IMG/VR virus record: IMGVR_UViG_3300028025_003286
Span: 1-23,655 of that record
From: a virus
Direction: 5' to 3' (one strand)
Length of the DNA: 23,655 nucleotides
The position numbers and the translations under genes are program-made. How positions within the stretch are numbered: the stretch's first letter is position 1; each line of letters starts with the position of its first letter. The notes beneath the pieces were generated by a model. The model did no database searches, was not told where the DNA came from, and saw only the letters and a list, made by a program, of their open reading frames with translations. Below are positions 4,356 to 17,323 of the stretch, one piece after another.

Positions 4356-6275
4356 ATGGCTGTAAAAACAAAAATTCAAGTACGTAGGGACACTGCCGCT
4401 AACTGGACTTCAACTAACCCTGTTTTAGCACAAGGTGAAATTGGCTATGTAATTAGCGGAACTAACGCCACCTACTTCAAAATTGGCGATGGAACTACTG
4501 CTTGGGAATCCCTTGCTTTTCAAAACACTACTGGACCTACAGGAGCCACTGGTTCTACAGGTGCCACAGGTGCAGGTTTTAGCGGTGTAACATCAACTTC
4601 GTCAGTTGCTATCGGTACAGGTTCTAAGACTTTTGCTGTAGCCAGCACAGGTGCGTTTGTGCTTGGAGACCGAGTTAGAGTAATTAACACTGCAACCAAC
4701 TGGGTTGAAGGAACAATCACCGCCCTAACTTCAAACACCTCAATCACTGTTAACGTAGACCAAACTTCAGGTACAGGAACTTTAAGTTCTTGGACTGTAA
4801 GCATTGCAGGTCTCCCAGGAACTGTAGGTCAAACTGTAACAGGTCCTACAGGTCTAGGTTACTCTGGTGTTACATCTACTTCTTCTGTGGCTATTTCTAC
4901 AGGCTCTAAGGCGTTTACTGTTACTAGTACTGGGGCTTACGCAGTCGGTACTCGTGTTCGTGCCGCACACACTTCTACCCCAACTAACTATGTTGAAGGT
5001 GTAATCACTGCGTTAGTTGCAGATACTTCTATTACTGTTAACGCTGATGCTATTGGCGGTTCTGGTACACAGACTGCATGGACTTTCTCTGTTGCAGGTC
5101 AACCTGGCCCTACTGGTGCGACTGGCTCTACTGGTGCGACTGGCTCTACTGGTGCGACTGGTGCACAGGGTGCTACTGGGCCGCAGGGCTCTACAGGCTC
5201 TACTGGTGCTGCTGGTACTAATGGAACTAACGGTGCCGATGGAGTTGGTTATGATGGCGTAACTTCTACCACATCAATTTCGGTGAGCACAGGTTCCAAA
5301 GCAATTACTGTAAACAAGGTTGGTGCGTATGCACTTGGCACTAGAGTTCGTGTAGCCAATACTGCTACCCCAACTAACTTTGTTGAAGGTATTATCACTA
5401 ACATTGCCAGCCTAGTCGTTACCGTTAACGCAGATGCTATTGGTGGTACAGGAACTTTCACAGCATGGACTTTTTCTGTTGCAGGTAGCGTAGGTGCTAC
5501 TGGAGCGACTGGTGCCACTGGTGCTCAAGGCACTACAGGTGCCACAGGGGCTACTGGCTCTACTGGTGCTGCGGGTACTAACGGTGTTGGTTATGACGGA
5601 GTAACCTCTAGTTCCTCAGTGTCAATTAGCACAGGCTCTAAAAACTTTACCTTAAACAAGGTAGGTGCCTTTGCTGTTGGTACTAGAGTGCGTCTAGCAA
5701 ACTCTTCTTCTCCAGCAAACTTTGTTGAAGGAGTCATCACTGGAATCGCCTCTTTAGTTATTACCGTTAACGTGGATGCTACTGGCGGTTCTGGAACTTA
5801 CTCTTCTTGGACAGTTTCTGCTGCTGGAGTTAACGCTCTCGGTGCCATCCCGACAGGGATTAGAGTCCCTTACGCAACATCCTCAAACACAATCGCTTAT
5901 TCTGAAATCTCGTATCAAAGTGCTTATGGAGAGGTACTGACAAGAAACGGCTCAACCGTGGAATGGCAATACCCTCATCCGTACAAGATTCAAGTAGGTA
6001 AGCAAACATCAGTACTTGCTGGCGGTGCTACCCATGCGTCTATGACTGTTATTTTCCCTGTGCCATTTGACTATGTCCCTGTTGTAACCGTTACTCCAAC
6101 AGGAACAAGCACTCCTACTTCAGTAACTATAAGCAGCGTTACAACTGATAGTTTTGTGGCATACATCTTTGCGGGTACTGGAACCAATAACTCTGTTTGG
6201 GGAGCGTCAACTACCGCTAGAACTATTCACTGGTCTGCTGTTCAATACGCCTATAACGGTGCTGAGTCTGCCTAA
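4356..6275 (+). CDS. Collagen-like modular fibre protein with Mtd_N-like N-terminus
   Basis: 639 residues with a strong AGGAGAT site 7 nt before the ATG. Residues 1-57 (IQVRRDTAANWTS, LAQGEIGY, FKIGDGTTAWESL) match the major tropism determinant N-terminal type of fibre attachment domain. Four copies of an ~80-residue module follow at about 74-152, 167-248, 297-378 and 411-490. The consensus is GVTST(S/T)S at the start, TGSK, RVR, (Y/F)VEG.IT, VN.D, and a closing W(T).S.AG. The modules are joined by Gly-X-Y strings (GATGSTGATG) of varying length. Residues 543-639 form a different terminal domain (QVGKQTSVLAGGA, VPFDYVPVVTVTP) ending in NGAESA. This suggests a long trimeric fibre of beads on a collagen-like string. 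The stop overlaps the start of the next gene as TAATG. Confidence 0.82.
   Translation: MAVKTKIQVRRDTAANWTSTNPVLAQGEIGYVISGTNATYFKIGDGTTAWESLAFQNTTGPTGATGSTGATGAGFSGVTSTSSVAIGTGSKTFAVASTGAFVLGDRVRVINTATNWVEGTITALTSNTSITVNVDQTSGTGTLSSWTVSIAGLPGTVGQTVTGPTGLGYSGVTSTSSVAISTGSKAFTVTSTGAYAVGTRVRAAHTSTPTNYVEGVITALVADTSITVNADAIGGSGTQTAWTFSVAGQPGPTGATGSTGATGSTGATGAQGATGPQGSTGSTGAAGTNGTNGADGVGYDGVTSTTSISVSTGSKAITVNKVGAYALGTRVRVANTATPTNFVEGIITNIASLVVTVNADAIGGTGTFTAWTFSVAGSVGATGATGATGAQGTTGATGATGSTGAAGTNGVGYDGVTSSSSVSISTGSKNFTLNKVGAFAVGTRVRLANSSSPANFVEGVITGIASLVITVNVDATGGSGTYSSWTVSAAGVNALGAIPTGIRVPYATSSNTIAYSEISYQSAYGEVLTRNGSTVEWQYPHPYKIQVGKQTSVLAGGATHASMTVIFPVPFDYVPVVTVTPTGTSTPTSVTISSVTTDSFVAYIFAGTGTNNSVWGASTTARTIHWSAVQYAYNGAESA
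5113..5165 (+). repeat. 18-bp in-frame tandem repeat in the collagen-like linker
   Basis: The unit CTGGTGCGACTGGCTCTA occurs at 5113-5130 and 5131-5148, and its first half recurs from 5149. It codes for Gly-Ala-Thr-Gly-Ser-Thr steps between the second and third modules. Copy-number change would alter linker length in frame. Confidence 0.85.
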
Positions 6276-6880
6276 TGCGTGGCGGTGGTGCCGATAACGG
6301 CAGGTTTAGCGTAGACTATGAAGCCAAATCCATGTATGAAGGAATTGGTGAAGAACTAGGTGCTACCGTCGGTGTTGAAGTTGACTGGTGGCGTTGGCAA
6401 GACTACTACCTAAACGATAACTACACAGACATCGTAGACCCTATCTATGACGTATCATCATCTACAGCCACTAAAGGTAGGCGTTGGATGTTGCCGTTCA
6501 AAATGCCTGTAGTTATGGCTCAACTAGTTCGTGGAACTAACGTTATGAATGAGCGTGGTTTCTACGTTTCAGACACACTTCGCCTAGTTATTAACGTAGG
6601 TGAAGTAAACCGCTTTTTACCAACTCTACTTACCAATTCTAGCGGCCACATTAAAGATAGAATTATATATCGTGGTCAAGTATTTGTTCCTACACGGGTA
6701 CTACCTAGAGGTTCTTTCGGGTACCGTTGGGCTGTAGTAACAATTGACTGCAACCAGATGAACGCTGAAGAACTTGTAAATGACCCGCAGTTTCAGGCAT
6801 ACGCCACACCATCTAAATCAGATTACAGAACTTTTGGTTATGATGTTAGCACTTATGGTTCTGACCTTTACGGAGAGTAA
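6275..6880 (+). CDS. Putative virion protein, possibly neck or head-closure
   Basis: 201 residues, start in a TAATG overlap with the collagen-like fibre gene. Features seen: a Trp-rich stretch DWWRWQDYYL, a basic GRRWMLPFKMPVVMAQL, then GFYVSDTLRLVI, KDRIIYRGQVFVPTRVLPRG, and NAEELVNDPQF near the C-terminus. The alternating strands and the D-R-I-I-Y-R-G-Q-V-F segment resemble small beta-barrel head-closure or adaptor proteins of tailed phages, but similarity by eye is modest. Tight coupling to a fibre gene upstream and a mini-fibre downstream supports a structural role. It could instead be a fibre-associated adaptor. I do not recognise a named family with confidence. Confidence 0.6.
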   Translation: MRGGGADNGRFSVDYEAKSMYEGIGEELGATVGVEVDWWRWQDYYLNDNYTDIVDPIYDVSSSTATKGRRWMLPFKMPVVMAQLVRGTNVMNERGFYVSDTLRLVINVGEVNRFLPTLLTNSSGHIKDRIIYRGQVFVPTRVLPRGSFGYRWAVVTIDCNQMNAEELVNDPQFQAYATPSKSDYRTFGYDVSTYGSDLYGE

Positions 6881-6882
6881 AA

Positions 6883-7098
6883 ATGCCACTTGTTAAACCT
6901 ACTATTGGGCAGTCCTCTTGGGGTACAACCCTAAACACTGCCCTTGACTACCTAGACACTAAGGTAGGCCCTTGGGTCGCTGTCCCAGCATCAGCAACAG
7001 CAACAGGTACCGCAGGTCAAGTAGCCTACGCATCTGGGTTTCTATACATATGTGTAGCAACTAACACTTGGAGAAGAACCGCTTTATCTAGTTGGTAA
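6883..7098 (+). CDS. Mini tail-fibre-like protein
   Basis: 71 residues, starting 2 nt after the upstream stop. The N-terminus KPTIGQSSWGTTLN has the G-x-x-x-W-G-x-x-L-N pattern seen at the start of many phage fibre proteins. The C-terminal half, with GTAGQVAYASGFLYICVATNTWRRTALSSW, matches the small beta-hairpin unit that ends many fibre or head-decoration proteins (A-G-x-x-A, Y-x-C-V, T-W-R-R, final W). The protein therefore looks like a fibre reduced to its two end pieces without a stalk. It is probably a virion component; its site on the particle is unknown. Confidence 0.65.
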   Translation: MPLVKPTIGQSSWGTTLNTALDYLDTKVGPWVAVPASATATGTAGQVAYASGFLYICVATNTWRRTALSSW

Positions 7099-7100
7099 TT

Positions 7101-7235
7101 ATGCCGTTTAAATCAGAGCAACAACGCAAGTTTATGTACGCCACTAACCCTAAGATGGCGGTACAATGGGAAGAACATACCCCTAAAGGTAAGGCTCTAC
7201 CTAAAAAAGTAAAGAAGAAACAGAGGAAAAAATAA
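7101..7235 (+). CDS. 44-aa basic phage protein (MPFKSE family)
   Basis: A short ORF of 44 residues starting 2 nt after the mini-fibre stop and ending in a TAATG overlap with the next gene. It begins MPFKSEQQRKFMYATNP, continues WEEHTPKGKALP and ends in a lysine-rich tail (KKVKKKQRKK). The M-P-F-K-S-E-x-Q-R-K start and the W-E-x-H-T-P-K-G-K-x-L-P segment are the hallmark of a small protein common in tailed phages, whose function is unknown. About 27% of residues are Lys. Coupling on both sides and the family pattern make it a real gene. Confidence 0.85.
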   Translation: MPFKSEQQRKFMYATNPKMAVQWEEHTPKGKALPKKVKKKQRKK

Positions 7236-7441
7236 TGGCACTACCGAGACCAAAACGCTCAAAGAAGGCTAACGTAGCAAACACTAAAGACTCTAACGGA
7301 AAAGCCGAAAAGACTGTGAAAGCACAGCACAAGGGAAACATTAAGAAGAACCCTACTGATGTTGCTGGTGAGAAGGTTCACAGCCGTTACAGCACTACAG
7401 GTAAGGGCCCTAAGAAGACCCCTAAGTTTAAGAAGGACTAG
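7235..7441 (+). CDS. Lysine-rich small protein, unknown function
   Basis: 68 residues, about 25% Lys, almost no hydrophobic core. The start is in a TAATG overlap. It opens MALPRPKRSKK and ends KTPKFKKD. Composition suggests an unfolded, nucleic-acid-binding or virion-internal peptide, but no family is recognised. It belongs to the coupled chain of small genes; the next gene starts 2 nt after its stop. Confidence 0.7.
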   Translation: MALPRPKRSKKANVANTKDSNGKAEKTVKAQHKGNIKKNPTDVAGEKVHSRYSTTGKGPKKTPKFKKD

Positions 7442-7443
7442 TC

Positions 7444-7758
7444 ATGGCAAGCGAAGCATGGCAGAAGAAGTCTGGTAAGAACGCTAAAGGCGGTCTTAAT
7501 GAAAAGGGACGTAAGTCCTATGAGAGAGCAAACCCTGGCTCAGATTTGAAGGCTCCAGTTAAATCTGGCGATAACCCTAGACGTGCTTCATTCCTTGCGA
7601 GGATGGGTGGTAACCCTGGGCCAGAGCGTAAGCCTAACGGTGAGCCTACAAGACTACTGTTGTCTCTACAGGCGTGGGGTGCCTCTTCTAAGGCTGATGC
7701 TAAGAAGAAGGCTGCGGCTATGTCTAAGCGTCTTGACGCTAAGAAAGGTAAAAAATAA
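7444..7758 (+). CDS. DUF6321-like small basic protein
   Basis: 104 residues. The core AWQKKSGKNAKGGLNEKGR, then SYERANPGSDLKAPV, RRASFLARMGG, GPERKPNGEPTRLLLSLQAW is the pattern of the DUF6321 family, which occurs in many environmental and T4-like phages and has no established function. A lysine-rich tail (KKKAAAMSKRLDAKKGKK) is added at the C-terminus, as in its neighbours. It starts 2 nt after the upstream stop and ends in a TAATG overlap. Family assignment is by eye from the G-G-L-N-E-K-G-R and R-x-S-F-x-A-R-M-G-G motifs, which are distinctive. Confidence 0.8.
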   Translation: MASEAWQKKSGKNAKGGLNEKGRKSYERANPGSDLKAPVKSGDNPRRASFLARMGGNPGPERKPNGEPTRLLLSLQAWGASSKADAKKKAAAMSKRLDAKKGKK

Positions 7759-8561
7759 TGGCGGATACTATTCTTTCAGTAGCATACGACATGATTAAGC
7801 CTCATCTAAAACCTGAGCACGACAAATGGGTGCTAAACAATGGTGGTTCACCTGAGGCTATTGCTCTGGGTAACCAGGCACATAACGCTGCTCATGGTGA
7901 CTCTGAAGTTATTGCTGCAAAAAACCTTTCAAATGCTGCTTTGGATAAGGTAAGCAAAATTAGGGAAACTGCACCTAATAGCCCAGAACATGAGGCTGCG
8001 ATTGACGCTTATCAACCTCTTAATGATGCCCATGGGAAGTTGTATGCAAAGAAGTTTGCCGAACATTTAGGCAATCTAATTGACCAGCATATTGCCACCG
8101 CTCCACAACGTGAAGCACAAGAACGTGTTGCTAAAGCAACTGAAGAAGGCAAGAATCAGCCTATCGTTAAAAAGCCTAACGGTAAATTTGTTGCGGGATG
8201 TTTGAAGTGCCAAGGGTCTGGTGTAATCCCTCGTTTTGGAAATACCGCTGATGGTATGTGCTTTGACTGTAAAGGCGTTGGCTTTAGTAACAAAAGTCAG
8301 GAACATGACTCTGCTGAAGAACTCCGTAAACTGATGGTGGACACTAGAGTTGCTCGTGCCCAAGGTATGCCTGTTAGAAACACCACTTCTACACCAGCGG
8401 TTGCTGCTCCTGCACCTTCAGAGAGACCTAAAGGCTTTACAAACAAGTTCCCAGGAACCTGTGTTGGATGTGGTACTCGTGTAGGTAAAGGCGAGGGTAT
8501 GACCTCTAAAGGTCCTTCCGACAATTGGGAAGTTAGATGTGTGGGGTGCCACCATGGCTAA
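7758..8561 (+). CDS. Protein with DnaJ-type zinc finger and second zinc ribbon
   Basis: 267 residues, the only mid-size protein in the small-gene chain. Residues 1-130 are mostly helical and Ala/His-rich (ALGNQAHNAAHGD; ALDKVSKIRE) with no recognised family. Residues 148-175 contain CLKCQGSG and CFDCKGVGF (Cys148, 151, 168, 171), the CxxCxGxG pair of DnaJ-type zinc fingers. A Pro/Ala linker (about 208-225) leads to a second four-Cys site, CVGC and CVGCHHG (Cys235, 238, 261, 264). There is no J-domain HPD motif, so it is not a DnaJ co-chaperone in full. Roles in protein or nucleic-acid binding are possible. The stop overlaps the next start by 8 nt. Confidence 0.75.
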   Translation: MADTILSVAYDMIKPHLKPEHDKWVLNNGGSPEAIALGNQAHNAAHGDSEVIAAKNLSNAALDKVSKIRETAPNSPEHEAAIDAYQPLNDAHGKLYAKKFAEHLGNLIDQHIATAPQREAQERVAKATEEGKNQPIVKKPNGKFVAGCLKCQGSGVIPRFGNTADGMCFDCKGVGFSNKSQEHDSAEELRKLMVDTRVARAQGMPVRNTTSTPAVAAPAPSERPKGFTNKFPGTCVGCGTRVGKGEGMTSKGPSDNWEVRCVGCHHG

Positions 8562-8859
8562 GAAACTTAAACCAACTAATGCTGTTAAAGGTGCTGCTAC
8601 TGAATACGCTAGAAGAGCAGTTACAAACCGTAGCAGCCAGAAGAAACTTCTAAAAGATACCTCAGAACTACCTGCATTACGTCAGTTGAAAATTGACGCA
8701 GCAGAGCAGGACATTAACGCTGCCCGTAATGCCGTAAAGAGTTCTGTGCAGTTTGCTTCTAGGGCAGGGGCTAGTACCCCACAGATTGGTGTCGCTTATT
8801 ACAAGGGGGCTATCAAAGGTGCGGTTAAGGGTGCTGTCCAGAACATAAGAGGTAAATAA
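8554..8859 (+). CDS. Basic helical small protein, unknown function
   Basis: 101 residues from the ATG at 8554. I chose this over the ATG at 8539 because MAKKLK matches the M-A-K starts of its neighbours and gives the same ATGGCTAA 8-nt overlap with the upstream stop that is seen at two other junctions in the window. The sequence is basic and mostly helix-forming (ALRQLKIDAAEQDINAARNAV; YYKGAIKGAVKGAVQNIRGK). The C-terminal G-A-x-K-G-A-V-K-G-A-V stretch could be an amphipathic helix. No family is recognised. Confidence 0.7.
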   Translation: MAKKLKPTNAVKGAATEYARRAVTNRSSQKKLLKDTSELPALRQLKIDAAEQDINAARNAVKSSVQFASRAGASTPQIGVAYYKGAIKGAVKGAVQNIRGK

Positions 8860-9083
8860 TGGCTAAAGTACGCACTAAAGATGGTGTTGGTCACGTTGTG
8901 ACTAAGAAGAAGTCTGACAAAGGTATCGGTAAAAAAGGCGATGTTATTGTTGACCATACAGCCACTAAAAAGGGTAAGTACGATAAAATGAACTTAACCA
9001 AAGTCGCTGGTTCTAAGACTGTTAAAGACGGTGTTAAAGCAACTCGTAAGTGGCATAAAGATAACCCACAGAAGAAGAAGTAA
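8859..9083 (+). CDS. Lysine-rich small protein, unknown function
   Basis: 74 residues, 21 of them Lys. Start and stop both lie in TAATG overlaps. It contains short strand-like pieces (GHVVTKKK, GDVIVDHTATKKG) and a helix near the end (VKDGVKATRKWHKDN), and finishes in a run of lysines. No known family is recognised. Composition suggests nucleic-acid contact, but this is inference only. Confidence 0.7.
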   Translation: MAKVRTKDGVGHVVTKKKSDKGIGKKGDVIVDHTATKKGKYDKMNLTKVAGSKTVKDGVKATRKWHKDNPQKKK

Positions 9084-9247
9084 TGGCTAAAGAAAAGAAG
9101 GTCTGGGAGAAGCCAGACCCAACTAAGAAAGACAAACCTCTATCTAAGAGTCAGAAGTCTTCTGCTAAGGCTCGTGCTAAGGCTGCTGGTCGCCCATACC
9201 CTAATCTAGTGGATAACATGGCAGCGGCTAAAAAGAAAAAGAAGTAA
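9083..9247 (+). CDS. 54-aa lysine-rich protein with GRPYPNLVDNMAA motif
   Basis: A short ORF of 54 residues, start and stop in TAATG overlaps. It begins MAKEKKVWEKPDP, has an alanine/lysine helix (SKSQKSSAKARAKAAGR) and the motif RPYPNLVDNMAA, then five lysines. The A-K-A-A-G-R-P-Y-P-N-L-V-D-N-M-A-A core is, as I recall, repeated in small proteins of environmental and actinobacterial phages; its function is unknown. About 30% of residues are Lys. Confidence 0.75.
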   Translation: MAKEKKVWEKPDPTKKDKPLSKSQKSSAKARAKAAGRPYPNLVDNMAAAKKKKK

Positions 9248-9537
9248 TGGCTGAGACTAAGAAGTTTGGTCCATACAAAGGCTCTAAAGCCAATGGTGGT
9301 AGACCTATCTATGTCTATAAGACTAAGCAAGCCGATGGTACTTGGAAAACTACAAGTAAAAATAAGGCTAGGGCTGACTATGAGTCTAAAAATGGTAAAC
9401 TGAGTAAAGATACAGATGTCGACCACAAGAACAATAAGGGTCGTTCAGGTGATGACCGTATGTCTAACCTGAAGGCAATGAAGCATAAAGATAACGTCGC
9501 TAAAGAAAATAAGCGTAGAGCAGGAAAGAAGAAATAA
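9247..9537 (+). CDS. HNH-like small protein
   Basis: 96 residues, start in a TAATG overlap. Residues 9-47 form a probable beta-hairpin domain (YKGSKANGGRPIYVYKTK, GTWKTTSKNKARADYE). Residues 57-84 resemble an HNH nuclease core: DVDHKNN with His60, then SNLKAM with Asn74, then HKDNVAKEN with His80 and Asn83. This order (D-H, then N-L, then N) is that of HNH endonucleases in which the third position is Asn. No CxxC zinc pairs are seen. The protein is small and basic, ending RRAGKKK. It may nick or bind DNA, or may be a degenerate relative. The next gene starts directly after its stop. Confidence 0.65.
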   Translation: MAETKKFGPYKGSKANGGRPIYVYKTKQADGTWKTTSKNKARADYESKNGKLSKDTDVDHKNNKGRSGDDRMSNLKAMKHKDNVAKENKRRAGKKK

Positions 9538-9795
9538 ATGGCTGCAAATCCAAAACCAACTCGTAAGACTGTAAAGACTACCTCGGCTAGAACCCCAGGA
9601 GGCACTAAGGTCGCTATCCAGACCGTTAAAGGTAAGGGTACTAGTTACAACAGAAACAGCAAACCTGGGTACGACAAGGCAGGTAACCAGACTGGTGAAG
9701 TGCTTTCAATCCGTGGTGCTGACATGAAGTCAACCAAGAAGGCTGTAAGAACTGGCCGTGCAGCAGGTATTGACCTTCCTAAGAAGAAGAAGTAA
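9538..9795 (+). CDS. Basic small protein, unknown function
   Basis: 85 residues, with an ATG immediately after the upstream TAA. Thr/Lys-rich N-terminus (KPTRKTVKTTSARTPGG), a short strand KVAIQTVKG, a Gly/Asn-rich loop with YNRNSKPGYDKAGNQTG, then a helical end (KSTKKAVRTGRAAGIDLP) and four lysines. It has the same style as its neighbours and no recognised family. The stop overlaps the next start as TAATG. Confidence 0.7.
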   Translation: MAANPKPTRKTVKTTSARTPGGTKVAIQTVKGKGTSYNRNSKPGYDKAGNQTGEVLSIRGADMKSTKKAVRTGRAAGIDLPKKKK

Positions 9796-9932
9796 TGGCT
9801 GTCAAGAAGCCTTGTGGCTGTGGCACATGCCCAGCATGTAAGACAAAGAAGAACCCTAACATGAAGCGTGACCAGAGTATTTCTGCCCGTAAGAAGAACT
9901 CTTTGGGCAAGATGCGTGGAGGCAAGAAGTAA
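9795..9932 (+). CDS. 45-aa Cys-cluster mini-protein
   Basis: A short ORF of 45 residues bounded by TAATG overlaps on both sides. Four cysteines are packed at residues 7-15 (CGCGTCPAC: Cys7, 9, 12, 15), followed by a basic tail with RDQSISARKKN and GKMRGGKK. The tight C-x-C-x-x-C-x-x-C spacing suggests a metal-binding knuckle. The same C-G-C-G-x-C core returns at the end of the next gene. No known family is recognised. It may bind nucleic acid or a host protein. Confidence 0.7.
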   Translation: MAVKKPCGCGTCPACKTKKNPNMKRDQSISARKKNSLGKMRGGKK

Positions 9933-10114
9933 TGCCTACTTGTGAAGTCTGCTCTACTGAAGAAAACATTGTTTACTCTGGCATAGACGCACTACTACTT
10001 GGCATCGACGGTGCTGAGACTGAAAGAATTTGCTACGATTGTGCAAATAAGCGAGTTCCTACAAACTGTGGTTGCGGTAACTGTGACTGCAAGAAAGAAG
10101 AAAACAATGGCTAA
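9932..10114 (+). CDS. Zinc-ribbon-like mini-protein with second Cys cluster
   Basis: 60 residues, unusually acidic for this cluster. A first pair CEVC (Cys4, Cys7) and a second CYDC with KR following (ICYDCANKR) give a plausible four-Cys zinc ribbon with a hydrophobic loop between them (GIDALLLGIDG). Residues 46-53 (CGCGNCDC) form a second cluster very like that of the preceding protein. The start is in a TAATG overlap, and the stop overlaps the next start by 8 nt (ATGGCTAA). Function unknown. Confidence 0.7.
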   Translation: MPTCEVCSTEENIVYSGIDALLLGIDGAETERICYDCANKRVPTNCGCGNCDCKKEENNG

Positions 10115-10301
10115 GAAACCATACATCGGCTCAAAGGCTGACGAAAAGCAAGACAAGAAAACCATGAAGGGTATGACCCCTGCACAGAAGGCTAAGTTCA
10201 AGAAGGAAGACGCCAAGATGGACAAGGACAAGACCTTGACCAAGAAGGCTGACACCAAGAAGGACAACGCTCTCGCCAAGAAGATTAAAGGCAAGAAGTA
10301 G
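10107..10301 (+). CDS. Very lysine-rich small protein, last of the chain
   Basis: 64 residues from the ATG at 10107, 23 of them Lys (about 36%). I chose this start rather than the upstream GTG at 9999 because MAKK matches neighbouring starts and gives the recurrent ATGGCTAA overlap. It contains KGMTPAQKAKFKKEDAKMDKD and ends KKIKGKK. It is probably helical and disordered in isolation. The composition resembles histone-like or DNA-condensing tails, but this is inference. It is followed 20 nt later by an intrinsic terminator. Confidence 0.75.
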   Translation: MAKKPYIGSKADEKQDKKTMKGMTPAQKAKFKKEDAKMDKDKTLTKKADTKKDNALAKKIKGKK

Positions 10302-10321: not shown

Positions 10322-10348
10322 ACCCTGCCAAAAGCAGGGTTTTCTTTT
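10322..10348 (+). terminator. Intrinsic terminator after the small-gene chain
   Basis: Stem CCCTGC (10323-10328) and GCAGGG (10334-10339) with loop CAAAA, one further A-T pair, then a T-rich tract TTTTCTTTT. It separates the fibre and small-gene block from the neck and tail block, so the two are probably separate transcription units, or there is partial read-through. Confidence 0.85.
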
Positions 10349-10423: not shown

Positions 10424-10612
10424 ATGTCATCTAAGGACTGGAAACCTTGGTGGGAACGTGTTGCTGACATACCCAACCCTCAAGAACAACAAGAGTTCAT
10501 CAGAGGAGTCGGGGGAGCACGTAAGCCTACCTTCGGTCAAACTATCTTATTATCTGTGATTGCTGGTTACGTTGGCGGTAAAGTTGCCCAACGTACAGGC
10601 GATGACGAGTGA
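10424..10612 (+). CDS. Small protein with hydrophobic segment, first gene of the neck/tail block
   Basis: 62 residues, with AAAGGA before the ATG. It starts with a polar, Trp-rich head (KDWKPWWERVADIPNPQEQQEF) and has a glycine-rich hydrophobic stretch of about 16 residues (TILLSVIAGYVGGKVA), then ends RTGDDE. This could be one short membrane segment or a buried helix. No family is recognised. The next gene begins with GTG overlapping the TGA stop (GTGA), so the two are coupled. Confidence 0.65.
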   Translation: MSSKDWKPWWERVADIPNPQEQQEFIRGVGGARKPTFGQTILLSVIAGYVGGKVAQRTGDDE

Positions 10613-10920
10613 AGAAGTTACTAGAAGCAACGCAAAAAGCAACGCAGGATACTGCACGCTATATGACGGCACAGTTGCGTAAGCAAGCCGTCCACAGTGG
10701 CTGGGACCCTGAAGTGGCCAGCACTTTGAACGTCACCCATGAGAACGGCAAGTTCACTGCACAGGCTCACCCAGATTACGCTGACCGTGCTTTTGTTCAC
10801 GAGTACGGCGATGAGAACGTTAAGCCTACCGCCACCATCCGCAAATTTTTAAATGACCCTAAGCACGTTAATGATGCTTTTATGGTTACCCTAAACAACC
10901 GTTGGAAGGAGACTAAATGA
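10609..10920 (+). CDS. HK97-gp10-like neck or tail-completion protein
   Basis: 103 residues from a GTG that overlaps the upstream TGA. It has an N-terminal helix (LEATQKATQDTARYMTAQLRKQAV), a GWDPEVASTLNVTHENGKFTAQ hairpin, then ADRAFVHEYGDENVKPTATIRKFLND. The F-x-x-E-Y-G, then P-T-A-x-x-R-x-F pattern is that of HK97 gp10-type proteins, which sit at the head-tail joint and help complete the tail. Its place just before a tail-terminator-like gene and the sheath fits. The stop overlaps the next start as ATGA. The family call is by motif. Confidence 0.65.
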   Translation: MKKLLEATQKATQDTARYMTAQLRKQAVHSGWDPEVASTLNVTHENGKFTAQAHPDYADRAFVHEYGDENVKPTATIRKFLNDPKHVNDAFMVTLNNRWKETK

Positions 10921-13835: not shown

Positions 13836-14642
13836 ATGGCAGAACAAACCCTGAGAGCAGCAGATGACGCTAACAAAGCAAATGATTTGCTTGCTCAAGC
13901 ACTATCCGAACCACAAACCGTAGAAGCACCAAAAATTGTTTCTCCTACAGACATTCTTGTCGACCTCCCTGGAGGTATCGTAATCGACGGGGAGGTTGTC
14001 AAGACTGCTCTTGTAAGAGAAATAAATGGTAGAGACGAAGAAGCATTAATCCGAGCAGAATCATCAGGAAAAATGTTTTCAATAGTTGTAAACCGTGCAA
14101 CAGTTTCTTTAGGCGACACTAAAGCCACAGACGAATTACTTGATAGCCTACTAGTTGGAGACAGAGATGCCATCCTTCTAGGAATTTATCGTGCAACATT
14201 TGGTGAAACAGCAGAACTATCTGGGTACTGTAACGGTTGCTCTGAATTTAAACCTGTAGAAATTGACATTCTAAAAGACATTAAAAGCAGAGTTTTACCT
14301 GACGCTCAGGAAACAAACTTTATCGTTAAAGGTAAGAACAAAGAGTTTTTGGTGACTTTACCAACAGGTAAGACACAGAAAAAACTCTTGGCTAACCCAG
14401 AAGCAAACATTGCAGAGTCTTTAACAACTTTGCTAGAACAAACCGTGTTAGAAATTGACGGCAGACCCGTCTTTAGTAAAACACAAATCCAAGCATTAGG
14501 ACTTGTCGACAGACGTGCTATTGCTGACGCTATCGCAGACCGAAACCCTGGCCCACTATTTGACCCAATAAATGTAACTTGCCCAGATTGTGAGAGTGAA
14601 GTGCAGGTGCCGATTAGCCTCGGTACTTTGTTTCGCCTCTAA
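13836..14642 (+). CDS. T4_baseplate-like protein in tail-assembly-chaperone position
   Basis: 268 residues, AAGGAG 6 nt before the ATG. The layout matches the T4_baseplate (gp26-type) family, often found between tube and tape measure: VDLPGG near the N-terminus, ALVREINGRDEEAL, LLVGDRDAILLGIYRATFG, two zinc-type Cys pairs (Cys132/135 in CNGC; Cys249/252 in CPDC), and LPTGKTQKKL. The segment QALGLVDRRAIADAIADRNPGP precedes the second Cys pair. By position it is expected to act as the chaperone that guides tape measure assembly. Its 3' end overlaps an open +1-frame segment that looks like a frameshift extension. A baseplate-hub role like T4 gp26 is an alternative. Confidence 0.75.
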   Translation: MAEQTLRAADDANKANDLLAQALSEPQTVEAPKIVSPTDILVDLPGGIVIDGEVVKTALVREINGRDEEALIRAESSGKMFSIVVNRATVSLGDTKATDELLDSLLVGDRDAILLGIYRATFGETAELSGYCNGCSEFKPVEIDILKDIKSRVLPDAQETNFIVKGKNKEFLVTLPTGKTQKKLLANPEANIAESLTTLLEQTVLEIDGRPVFSKTQIQALGLVDRRAIADAIADRNPGPLFDPINVTCPDCESEVQVPISLGTLFRL

Positions 14643-14802
14643 TTTAATAAGTTATGAAGAATTAATTTACTCTTGGGCCGCATTGGCTAAGTTGTATAAA
14701 GGTTGGACTCTAACGGAAATCCGTGAGATGTCTAGCCGTGAAAGGTTGAACTGGTTTGAAATAGCCAGAACAAGCGGAAAGGTGGTGAAGGATAATGGCT
14801 AA
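14635..14802 (+). CDS. +1-frame extension of the tail assembly chaperone (probable frameshift product)
   Basis: 55 residues open in the +1 frame from inside the end of the chaperone gene to TAA 14800-14802. The segment EELIYSWAALAKLYKGWTL, then EIREMSSRERLNWFEIA resembles the helical T-part of G/GT tail-assembly chaperones. It has no good start codon of its own: a GTG at 14590 lies inside the chaperone gene without an obvious ribosome site. A +1 slip of tRNA-Phe from TTT (14631-14633) to TTC (14632-14634) would fuse it to residue 266, giving about 321 residues. A second possible site is CTC-TAA at 14637-14642. The TAA overlaps the tape measure start by 8 nt. Confidence 0.65.
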   Translation, partial: ASNLISYEELIYSWAALAKLYKGWTLTEIREMSSRERLNWFEIARTSGKVVKDNG

Positions 14803-17323
14803 AGACGAAATCGTTGGCGACATTGAAGGGGCTAATAACGCCCTATCCAAAATGACACGCCTTGTTAAATCTCTTGTTGGGGACTTTGCAAAACTAGGTA
14901 AGGGCATCACTGGGGCTGTACAGCCTATGGGTAACGGCGGGTTTGGTCAACGAGGTTTAGGTGTAGGTTCAGGTAACCGCCTATCTCAAGCGTTGGGCGG
15001 ATTCAGTTTCATGCCTCCAACAGGAAACGTTGGGGCTACTTGGGACTGGACCAAGAAGATGAACCTTGGTATGGGTACCCTCCAAGGACTAACTAAAATG
15101 GCCACAGGCGTTGTTGCTGGTGGTTTCATGGCTATGCCTGACGTTGAAACAACCATAACTAGGGCATCAGGTTTTTATGGGGCTAACCTTATGCAGGGGG
15201 GTTCTGCTGGGGGTAGGGCAGGAATAGCAAACGCCACCTTTAATGGTATGAAAGGCGGTATTACAGGCCTTGGAATGGACTCTGCTGCCGCAGCAATTTT
15301 TTCTGGTATGGGAGTTAGCACTAATGCCACAGGAGTTAACGCTGGGCAATTTCAAAACTTACTTACATCAACTAAAAATGCTGCAAAATATTTAAACATA
15401 GATAACGCTACTGCTGCTCAGGCATTAGGTGGCTTAACTAGCGGTGCAACCTCTAGTTCCTTGATGCGTAACTTTGGTATGTACACAACAGACCCTATAA
15501 CAGGTAAGCGTCTTTCACAGGGCGAAATCTTTTCTCAGTTAAATGAGCGTATGACTGGTGGGCAAAAACTTACTGTGCAAGAATTACAGACTTCTATGCA
15601 GGGTGGTGCTTTAGAGCAAAACCTTAAAAACTCAGGCTTAGATGCTACTCAACAGCGTATGGCTTATCAATACATGATTGATGCTGCTGGCGGCAAGAAC
15701 ATGGACTTGAGCGACGATAAACTAATGGCACAACTTCAGAAAAGTGCTGGCGATAACCCTATGCAGTCTGAGTACAGTGCTATCAGTTCTCAAACAAAAA
15801 CTATGGAAACTGCAACAGACGCCTACATTGAAGGTATGAAAAAAGCCGCTGTAGTAATCGACCAGTTTAACGGTGCTATGCAAGGTTTCTTAAAGACCCC
15901 TGCAGGACAAGCGATGGCTCAACTAAATGCTGGAACTAGTTTAGGTATTAAAGACCCTACAATCGCTGGTGGTCTTACTGCACTTGGAGGTATAGGTGGC
16001 GGTCTAGGCTCAATTGGTGGGGCACTATTAACTAACGCATTACTAACAAAAAGTTTAAGAGGGGCAGGAGTTCTTGGCCCTAAAGGCGGCGGTGCAGTTG
16101 CTGCTGGTGGTGGTCGCTACCGTGACCCTAAGACAGGCAGATATACCAAGGCACCTGCGGCTAAAGGTGGCGGTGGATTTAAAGGTAGAGGTTTTGGTCT
16201 TGGTTTGCTTGCAAGTTTGGGTGGAGGATTTGTTGGAGACTTAGTTGCTGGTGATTCTGCACAAGGTAGTACCCAAAGTAAAATTGGTAATGCTATTGGT
16301 ACTGCCGCATCTTGGGGTGGTATGGGTGCAATGGTTGGAAGCATTATTCCAGGTGTGGGCACAGGAATTGGTGCTGCGATTGGAGCGACTGCTGGGGCAA
16401 TCTACGGTGGGTTTAGTGGTGATGGTGGTACCAGCAATGGTGGTGGAAGTAACAGTGCGGGGGCTGGAGCAGGGGCAGCGTTTAAACTTATTCACCCTGT
16501 AGGTAAAGCAAGAATGGTTTGTGGCTACGGTGTTTACGATGACTTACACCCTAGAGGTCACTGGGCGGTTGACTGGTCTGCCGCTGAAGGCACAGGAATT
16601 ATGGCTGCTGCCGCTGGTAAAGTAATTTTCACTGGTGGTCGTGCAGCCAACACTATGGGAACTAGTGACCGCAGTTATGGTCTACACGTAAAAGTTGACC
16701 ACGGAAATGGGTATGTGACCAACTACGCTCACGTAAGTGGTTTTGACGTTAGTGTTGGACAGCAAGTTACCCAAGGACAGCAAATCGCTAGAGTCGGTAA
16801 CACAGGTTACTCTGAAGCCGCTCACCTTCACTTCGAACTTTGGAAAGGTGGGACAAGAGTTGACCCATCACCATTCTTAGGTGCAAACTACGCAAAAAAC
16901 TCAGGAGTTAAAGGTGGAAGCAGTACTTCATCTAACTCTGTTCGTGGTATGGGTGGCTCTGCTGACGCTGGGCTTTTAGGTTTCTCAACAGGTGCATCAG
17001 GTAATGGTACTAAAATCCCTTCATCGTATAAAGGTGCCGCTATTGGTAAGTCAGTTGTTGCTGGTGGCGGTAGAACTAGTGCATCTTCTGGTGGTAGCGG
17101 AACATTGCTGGGTAAAGGAACTTCTACAGGTGCAAACCTAGGTGGAGGTATGGGAACTACTGGTGGAGGAGATGGACCTAGTAGTGGTGGCGGTGGCGGA
17201 AACAATGTCACTATAAACGTATCTGTAGCACAGGCTTCAGAATCTGAAGCAAGACGCTTTGCAAAACTTATTAAAGAGTATCTAGATAACGATACATTAA
17301 CTTCAACAATGGGGAGACTATAA
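14795..17323 (+). CDS. Tape measure protein with M23 peptidase domain
   Basis: 842 residues, start in an ATGGCTAA overlap with the +1-frame extension. The N-terminal half is Gly/Ala/Met/Gln-rich and helical (for example FSQLNERMTGGQKLTVQEL; DAYIEGMKKAAVVIDQFNGAM). Three hydrophobic glycine-rich stretches lie at about 390-416, 465-485 and 500-540, the last with a glycine-zipper look. Residues 565-697 are a LytM/M23 endopeptidase: His589 and Asp593 in HWAVDW, His646 in NYAH, and HLHFEL with His677 and His679. All zinc ligands appear present, so it is probably active against peptidoglycan. A Gly/Ser-rich region follows, then a helical tail. The protein sets tail length and probably helps open the cell wall during injection. 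Confidence 0.92.
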   Translation: MAKDEIVGDIEGANNALSKMTRLVKSLVGDFAKLGKGITGAVQPMGNGGFGQRGLGVGSGNRLSQALGGFSFMPPTGNVGATWDWTKKMNLGMGTLQGLTKMATGVVAGGFMAMPDVETTITRASGFYGANLMQGGSAGGRAGIANATFNGMKGGITGLGMDSAAAAIFSGMGVSTNATGVNAGQFQNLLTSTKNAAKYLNIDNATAAQALGGLTSGATSSSLMRNFGMYTTDPITGKRLSQGEIFSQLNERMTGGQKLTVQELQTSMQGGALEQNLKNSGLDATQQRMAYQYMIDAAGGKNMDLSDDKLMAQLQKSAGDNPMQSEYSAISSQTKTMETATDAYIEGMKKAAVVIDQFNGAMQGFLKTPAGQAMAQLNAGTSLGIKDPTIAGGLTALGGIGGGLGSIGGALLTNALLTKSLRGAGVLGPKGGGAVAAGGGRYRDPKTGRYTKAPAAKGGGGFKGRGFGLGLLASLGGGFVGDLVAGDSAQGSTQSKIGNAIGTAASWGGMGAMVGSIIPGVGTGIGAAIGATAGAIYGGFSGDGGTSNGGGSNSAGAGAGAAFKLIHPVGKARMVCGYGVYDDLHPRGHWAVDWSAAEGTGIMAAAAGKVIFTGGRAANTMGTSDRSYGLHVKVDHGNGYVTNYAHVSGFDVSVGQQVTQGQQIARVGNTGYSEAAHLHFELWKGGTRVDPSPFLGANYAKNSGVKGGSSTSSNSVRGMGGSADAGLLGFSTGASGNGTKIPSSYKGAAIGKSVVAGGGRTSASSGGSGTLLGKGTSTGANLGGGMGTTGGGDGPSSGGGGGNNVTINVSVAQASESEARRFAKLIKEYLDNDTLTSTMGRL

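Follow-up and report, generated by a model that had tools for sequence, protein, structure and literature searches.

What do twelve very small, mostly lysine-rich genes do when they stand in one unbroken row between the fibre and neck genes of a tailed phage? The question is raised by positions 7101-10301 of the IMG/VR virus record IMGVR_UViG_3300028025_003286, whose 23,655 bases are called the window below and carry fibre, neck, sheath, tube, tape-measure and baseplate genes, as expected of a contractile-tailed phage. An earlier note on this DNA had proposed a conserved accessory cassette. Our comparison with relatives indicates that the genes very probably occupy a fixed, hypervariable and ordered slot that is filled from a shared pool. 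As to function, we tentatively favour, somewhat short of an even chance, the reading that the products are accessory proteins that bind DNA, are produced alongside the virion and are most likely packaged and injected like the internal proteins of phage T4.

The twelve open reading frames (ORFs) follow one another head to tail, all of them open, and are numbered g1 to g12. As the earlier note had stated, seven of them (g2, g4, g6, g7, g8, g10 and g11) share a TAATG with their predecessor, overlapping the preceding stop codon by one base. The remaining junctions are gaps of 2 nucleotides (nt) before g3 and 0 nt before g9 and overlaps of 8 nt before g5 and g12; the description 'overlaps or gaps of 0-2 nt' is thus close to correct and fails only at g5 and g12. 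At least six products had been credited with about 25-36% lysine, which was one too many: five reach 25.0% (g1 27.3%, g2 25.0%, g6 28.4%, g7 29.6% and g12 35.9%), and the sixth, g10, has 24.4%. Ten of the twelve products have a net charge of +11 to +17 and an isoelectric point (pI) of 10.1-11.0, the non-basic members being g4 (net +3) and g11 (net -6, pI 4.3). In the 20 other translated genes of the window lysine accounts for only 1-10%.

Relatives were sampled as 160 loci plus the window. Both flanks were located by tblastn in 42 of these, and 39 distinct loci remained when the duplicate slots of L004, L042 and L063 were dropped. All 39 hold small genes between a conserved 201-amino acid (aa) protein and the neck genes. 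The genes of the relatives were called by our own script, and some starts and weak ORFs are surely wrong (examples are the long start of family F3 in L005, F25 and the single-member clusters). The slots contain 5-16 ORFs (median 10), among them 4-14 basic ones (median 8). With the fibre-like cluster F7 excluded from the charge counts, 317 of 359 slot products have a net charge of +5 or more (median 62 aa and +12) and 232 of 359 contain at least 20% lysine. Exactly one base is shared at 176 of 334 slot junctions, and the spacing falls between -8 and +3 at 264.

Twenty-six families with at least three members cover 309 of the 359 slot genes. The family of g12, F1, is the commonest (35 of 39 slots), and in 24 of 39 no basic gene follows it. 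The majority order is followed by 726 of 746 ordered pairs of families present in at least nine slots, and F14 and F15 are inseparable (8/8 slots). Three pairs of families never occur together, namely F8 and F9 (14 and 14 of 39 slots; 0 seen against 5.0 expected), F3 and F18 (28 and 6 of 39; 0 against 4.3) and F4 and F13 (24 and 9 of 39; 0 against 5.5), with P values computed without regard to kinship. On the sheath tree, a quick one in which 13 of 34 forks are open and L082, L091 and L049 form long branches, these alternatives require at least six, four and two switches, respectively. F18 bears a faint, sub-cut-off resemblance to DUF6321, the domain of F3 (E 0.037), as would fit if a distant cousin had taken the place of F3. 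The gene-order comparison that the earlier note had called for thus returned the same type of slot in every distinct locus. Its 'conserved cassette' is conserved in slot, order and chemistry, but the gene set is hypervariable and its genes are replaced singly, a hypervariability which that note missed. Hence we conclude with high confidence that a fixed, ordered slot draws its contents from a common pool.

As a separate observation, 13 of 39 slots, L010, L016 and L065 among them, begin with F11, a peptide of some 40 aa that is extremely acidic (net about -20) and stands ahead of the basic genes.

The mode of replacement was visible in the nearest relative, L002, whose sheath is 92% identical to that of the window. 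Seven slot genes whose one-to-one orthologues in L002 are unambiguous gave ratios of nonsynonymous to synonymous substitution (dN/dS) of 0.00-0.16, and the flanks and sheath gave 0.03-0.29, the top value belonging to a 62-codon gene with few changes. These slot genes are under purifying selection, which rules out chance ORFs. Poor conservation, with high Ka/Ks, had been named as speaking against the cassette, and the opposite was found in these seven genes. Synonymous divergence (dS) from L002 is 1.5-2.7 in g5, g6, g9 and g12, compared with 0.35-0.66 in the other seven slot genes and 0.02-0.36 in the flanking genes; high values beside such neighbours indicate that these four genes were probably swapped singly for divergent alleles. 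The L002 slot moreover lacks g4, has g6 and g7 in inverted order and contains new genes. At the DNA level, similarity between the two begins again or breaks off close to the boundaries of genes (7762 and 10293). The common AAGAAGTAATGGC-like junction could provide short homology for such exchange, and the HNH genes, which 18 of 39 slots contain, could drive it.

The twelve genes lie on the + strand, as do the flanking genes and the hairpin described below. The first, g1 (7101..7235, 44 aa, net +11, F13), is of the MPFKSE type and has a dN/dS of 0.12 against L002; it is followed by g2 (7235..7441, 68 aa, net +15, F17; dN/dS 0.08). The DUF6321 protein g3 (7444..7758, 104 aa, net +17, F3, in 28 of 39 slots; dN/dS 0.07) matches PF19846 over model positions 1-72 of 72 (E 4e-24, 85.4 bits against a cut-off of 28.5). 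The largest product, g4 (7758..8561, 267 aa, F29, also in L085), has eight cysteines in C..C motifs and matches phrog_4046 (E 1e-6), with a DnaJ-type CxxCxGxG resemblance at E 0.1 only. Two of the allele-swapped genes come next, g5 (8554..8859, 101 aa, net +14, F23; dS 1.5) and g6 (8859..9083, 74 aa, net +16, F2, in 30 of 39 slots). The GRPYPNLVDNM-type protein g7 (9083..9247, 54 aa, net +13, F9, in 14 of 39) matches phrog_34011, a family without known function (E 3e-22). HNH-like g8 (9247..9537, 96 aa, net +17, F12, in 12 of 39) matches HNH_3 below the Pfam gathering score (E 0.002, 18.1 bits against 24.8), and all 12 of the 12 relatives aligned keep its residues D59, H60, N74 and N83. The swapped g9 (9538..9795, 85 aa, net +17, F24) has also moved in L002. 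Two cysteine-bearing products follow, g10 (9795..9932, 45 aa, net +13, F16, four cysteines; dN/dS 0.12) and the acidic g11 (9932..10114, 60 aa, F30, eight cysteines; dN/dS 0.16). The row closes with the swapped g12 (10107..10301, 64 aa, net +14). The family resemblances claimed earlier therefore held for g3 and g7 and, below the cut-off with its residues kept, for g8; family profile searches gave no significant match for g1. A further pool member of the relatives, F4, is DUF6496 (PF20106), like DUF6321 a domain without known function.

The earlier note knew of no functional description of such a cassette, and our literature searches agree: no paper was found under DUF6321 or DUF6496, nothing relevant under DUF5872, and keyword searches for phage proteins that are small or rich in lysine returned nothing describing this locus. 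Terms for such genes had no match in the available text of two freshwater phage papers.

The families are widespread outside this lineage, where we screened from DUF6321 or g7 matches, so that co-occurrence is conditional on those. DUF6321 matches 480 of 50,697 phage records, and g7 has more than 500 relatives among the IMG/VR matches listed. DUF6321 was also present in 45 of 75 loci found with g7, and F4 in 33 of 75 loci found with DUF6321. Several pool domains occur fused. In cyanophage syn9, gp114 combines F8 and DUF6321 in one polypeptide, encoded between gp16 and gp17; F14 and F15 form a single ORF in several other phages; and a 1018-aa protein with DUF4214 repeats (L300:2135-5188) ends in DUF6321 and F9 beads with DALRIA-like spacer repeats between them. 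That two pool domains can be joined in one chain speaks for joint action of the products. Two further ideas on these proteins were dropped: a DUF5824-like segment had suggested a link to T4-GC190, a cyanophage protein detected in virions, for which phmmer gave no match, and a supposed N-terminal targeting peptide on gp114 gave way when homologues proved to extend farther upstream. The syn9 protein belongs to the cyanomyovirus group T4-GC119, and the hyperplastic region of these phages, from g15/g16 to g17-g18, is likewise a hypervariable insertion point in a virion module, according to the available text of PMC2984593 and PMC3037559. In those phages one fused protein carries the domains and host metabolic genes lie alongside, whereas in the present slot each has its own gene, the genes overlap and the products are of a single chemical type.

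High charge, cysteine-rich members and an HNH-like member together point to nucleic acid as the target, and many products appear basic enough to bind DNA. A known precedent is provided by the T-even internal proteins IPI, IPII and IPIII, with IPI* acting against restriction. In the available text of PMC9026906 and PMC3012670 they are small (~8-20 kDa), basic, made with the head in roughly 300 copies each, DNA-binding through lysine contacts, dispensable and in many cases ejected, and they form a diverse defence set. The slot products share small size, basic charge, a location among virion genes and high diversity between close relatives. They differ from the T4 proteins in that 4-14 basic genes stand together in each slot, in kept order and without the L/I-x-E leader, in a lineage that showed no prohead protease among the ORFs scanned.

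On the favoured reading, the position-specific, hypervariable plug-in slot would close the fibre transcription unit of a myophage of actinobacteria at its 3' end. Its twelve genes would be expressed late, together with the virion, from one message that is translationally coupled and runs as far as the terminator. The products would each consist of one very small domain of strongly basic character, in most cases lysine-tailed; drawn in kept order from the common pool, they would bind DNA and act as a set. Several products may then enter the head with the genome and be ejected into the next host, where they could shield or organise the incoming DNA or clear its way past host defences. Replacement in an arms race would account for the swapping of single genes while the slot persists. 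In favour of this reading we count the kept order, the mutually exclusive alternatives, purifying selection beside single-gene swaps, the domain fusions, the location downstream of head genes and the terminase and head-tail adaptor neighbours that the families have in other lineages.

Several results weigh against packaging and injection. The T4-type leader L/I-x-E was found in the first 20 residues of 20 of 317 basic proteins (6.3%), compared with 8.7% of 20-mers from protein bodies, and no gp21-like prohead protease was seen in the part of the ORFs scanned near the L170 portal and head genes. AlphaFold2 models of DUF6321 (predicted local distance difference test score, pLDDT, 87; four helices) and of F2, the family of g6 (pLDDT 83; four strands and two C-terminal helices), had no fold match in the PDB, where a search by sequence also matched nothing. 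T4-GC119 is a 'hypothetical protein' in the S-SM1 record and in the available text of the virion-proteomics paper; the labels of that record do not strictly track virion detection, which makes them an imperfect proxy, so that this weighs only moderately. A glutamate at the bead boundary, expected of prohead-protease processing, was present in 29 of 35 cases among the fused proteins against 7.5 expected. Stand-alone F3 copies have it as well (25 of 28), which removes it as a processing sign for F3; the boundary discriminates for F8 only (fused 10 of 13, stand-alone 0 of 14). Because defining parts of the T4 system are absent or unseen and the one indirect test, on the cyanophage homologue, leans the other way, we keep the packaged and injected reading at the tentative level given above.

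The same missing leader and the same 'hypothetical' label would be expected if the proteins worked only inside the cell, as late accessories that coat concatemeric DNA or hand it to the terminase and are then left behind. This is possible but rather unlikely in our view. It agrees with the neighbours of the families in other phages: in 106 of 215 flanking ORFs surveyed, from viral loci only and with matches overlapping between families, the large ORFs included the terminase large subunit phrog_2 (16), the head-tail adaptor phrog_332 (9), primase/helicase (5) and a methyltransferase family (3), the last of DNA methyltransferase type. The position of the fused syn9 form between gp16 and gp17 agrees with it too. 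Gene-by-gene turnover and mutually exclusive alternatives, however, fit an arms race or adaptation to hosts better than a fixed role in packaging.

Alternatively, the slot might be a moron-like cargo site in which unrelated small genes pile up harmlessly before a terminator, their charge reflecting a common class of nucleic-acid binders and not a joint task. A terminator-like hairpin with a T tail does lie directly 3' of g12 (10322..10340), and such hairpins end 21 of the 29 slots with an end gap of at least 40 nt, the window included. Genes are gained, lost and swapped one by one, and the HNH genes are possible agents of mobility. Streptomyces phage GiJojo, moreover, has no such cassette between homologous flanks (left-flank homologue gp75, E 3e-16; tail terminator homologue, E 3e-24); two small-to-medium genes adjoin its tail terminator, neither of them basic. 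Against a random pile stand the near-uniform order (726 of 746 pairs), the excluded alternatives, the obligatory F14-F15 pair and the domain fusions elsewhere, and we judge this explanation to be distinctly unlikely.

The location between fibre and neck genes might also suggest assembly factors, such as chaperones or small structural adaptors, that vary with the upstream fibres; this seems very improbable, given that the families adjoin terminase, primase or methyltransferase genes elsewhere and that their chemistry is that of nucleic-acid binders.

The lysine-rich C-terminal ends noticed earlier were recovered across the slots: lysine or arginine makes up 58% of the last five residues in tightly coupled basic genes (n=197) and 55% in genes before a gap of more than 20 nt (n=51), compared with 25% in protein bodies. 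That these runs are merely Shine-Dalgarno-like purine tracts for the next coupled start is scarcely credible and largely refuted as a ribosome-binding-site artefact, since tails without a coupled follower are equally basic, even though AAG is commoner in coupled tails (372/507) than in bodies (1208/1882). The lysine tail is therefore a feature of the protein, with a second role in the start of the next gene being possible.

A broader and more speculative idea is that aquatic tailed phages share about two dozen tiny basic domains, a few of them known merely by the names DUF6321 or DUF6496, and that every phage builds a nucleoprotein core from its own selection. Actinophages would encode the domains in separate genes that overlap, cyanophages and others as beads on one polypeptide that might be cleaved apart; the set would enter the head along with the DNA, and single domains would be traded as host defences change. 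We consider it unlikely as a whole. The finding of an ordered combinatorial slot with interchangeable alternatives nevertheless links many orphan families, among them DUF6321 and the g7 type, which are widespread yet have no function found for them, into one testable system, and it offers a tractable model for the evolution of virion-linked cargo.

The setting of the slot is structural, as the earlier note had recognised. On its left, the 201-aa conserved protein of the fibre/virion block (6275..6880, anchor 'MRGG', traced in relatives by tblastn) is followed by a 71-aa short fibre-like protein of cluster F7 (6883..7098; phrog_17312, tail protein, E 7e-12), a stub that shares its start with longer fibre-like proteins at the same place in relatives (71-498 aa). 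On its right, a 62-aa KPWW protein (10424..10612) opens the neck block and precedes a 103-aa neck-region protein (10609..10920, anchor p103, without PHROG match), both serving as anchors in relatives. In the L072 contig the terminase, portal and major head protein genes lie upstream of the fibres and hence also of the cassette.

The closest relatives of the window by sheath are uncultured, and among the 50,697 phage records the best sheath matches, at 35-36%, come from Streptomyces phages. One relative contig, of 70 kb, has a gene for a WhiB protein, a key indicator of actinophages in the available text of the Nanopelagicales phage paper (PMC10202952); an actinobacterial host is therefore likely, and the virus group probably infects actinobacteria. 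The 70-kb relative also has a second run of small genes outside the slot, several with basic products (L168:2224-6736).

Elsewhere in the window, a fibre with an Mtd_N domain and collagen-like repeats is encoded at 4356-6275, and a tape-measure-like protein at 14795-17323 has an M23 peptidase domain at residues 588-691. A T4_baseplate-domain protein (13836-14802) is overlapped by 53 nt by a small GTG-start ORF (14590-14802), and the two are a possible frameshifted tail chaperone pair. In the fibre regions of L007 and L008, genes of about 350 aa stand among the fibres and look glycosyltransferase-like on a reading of their sequence alone.

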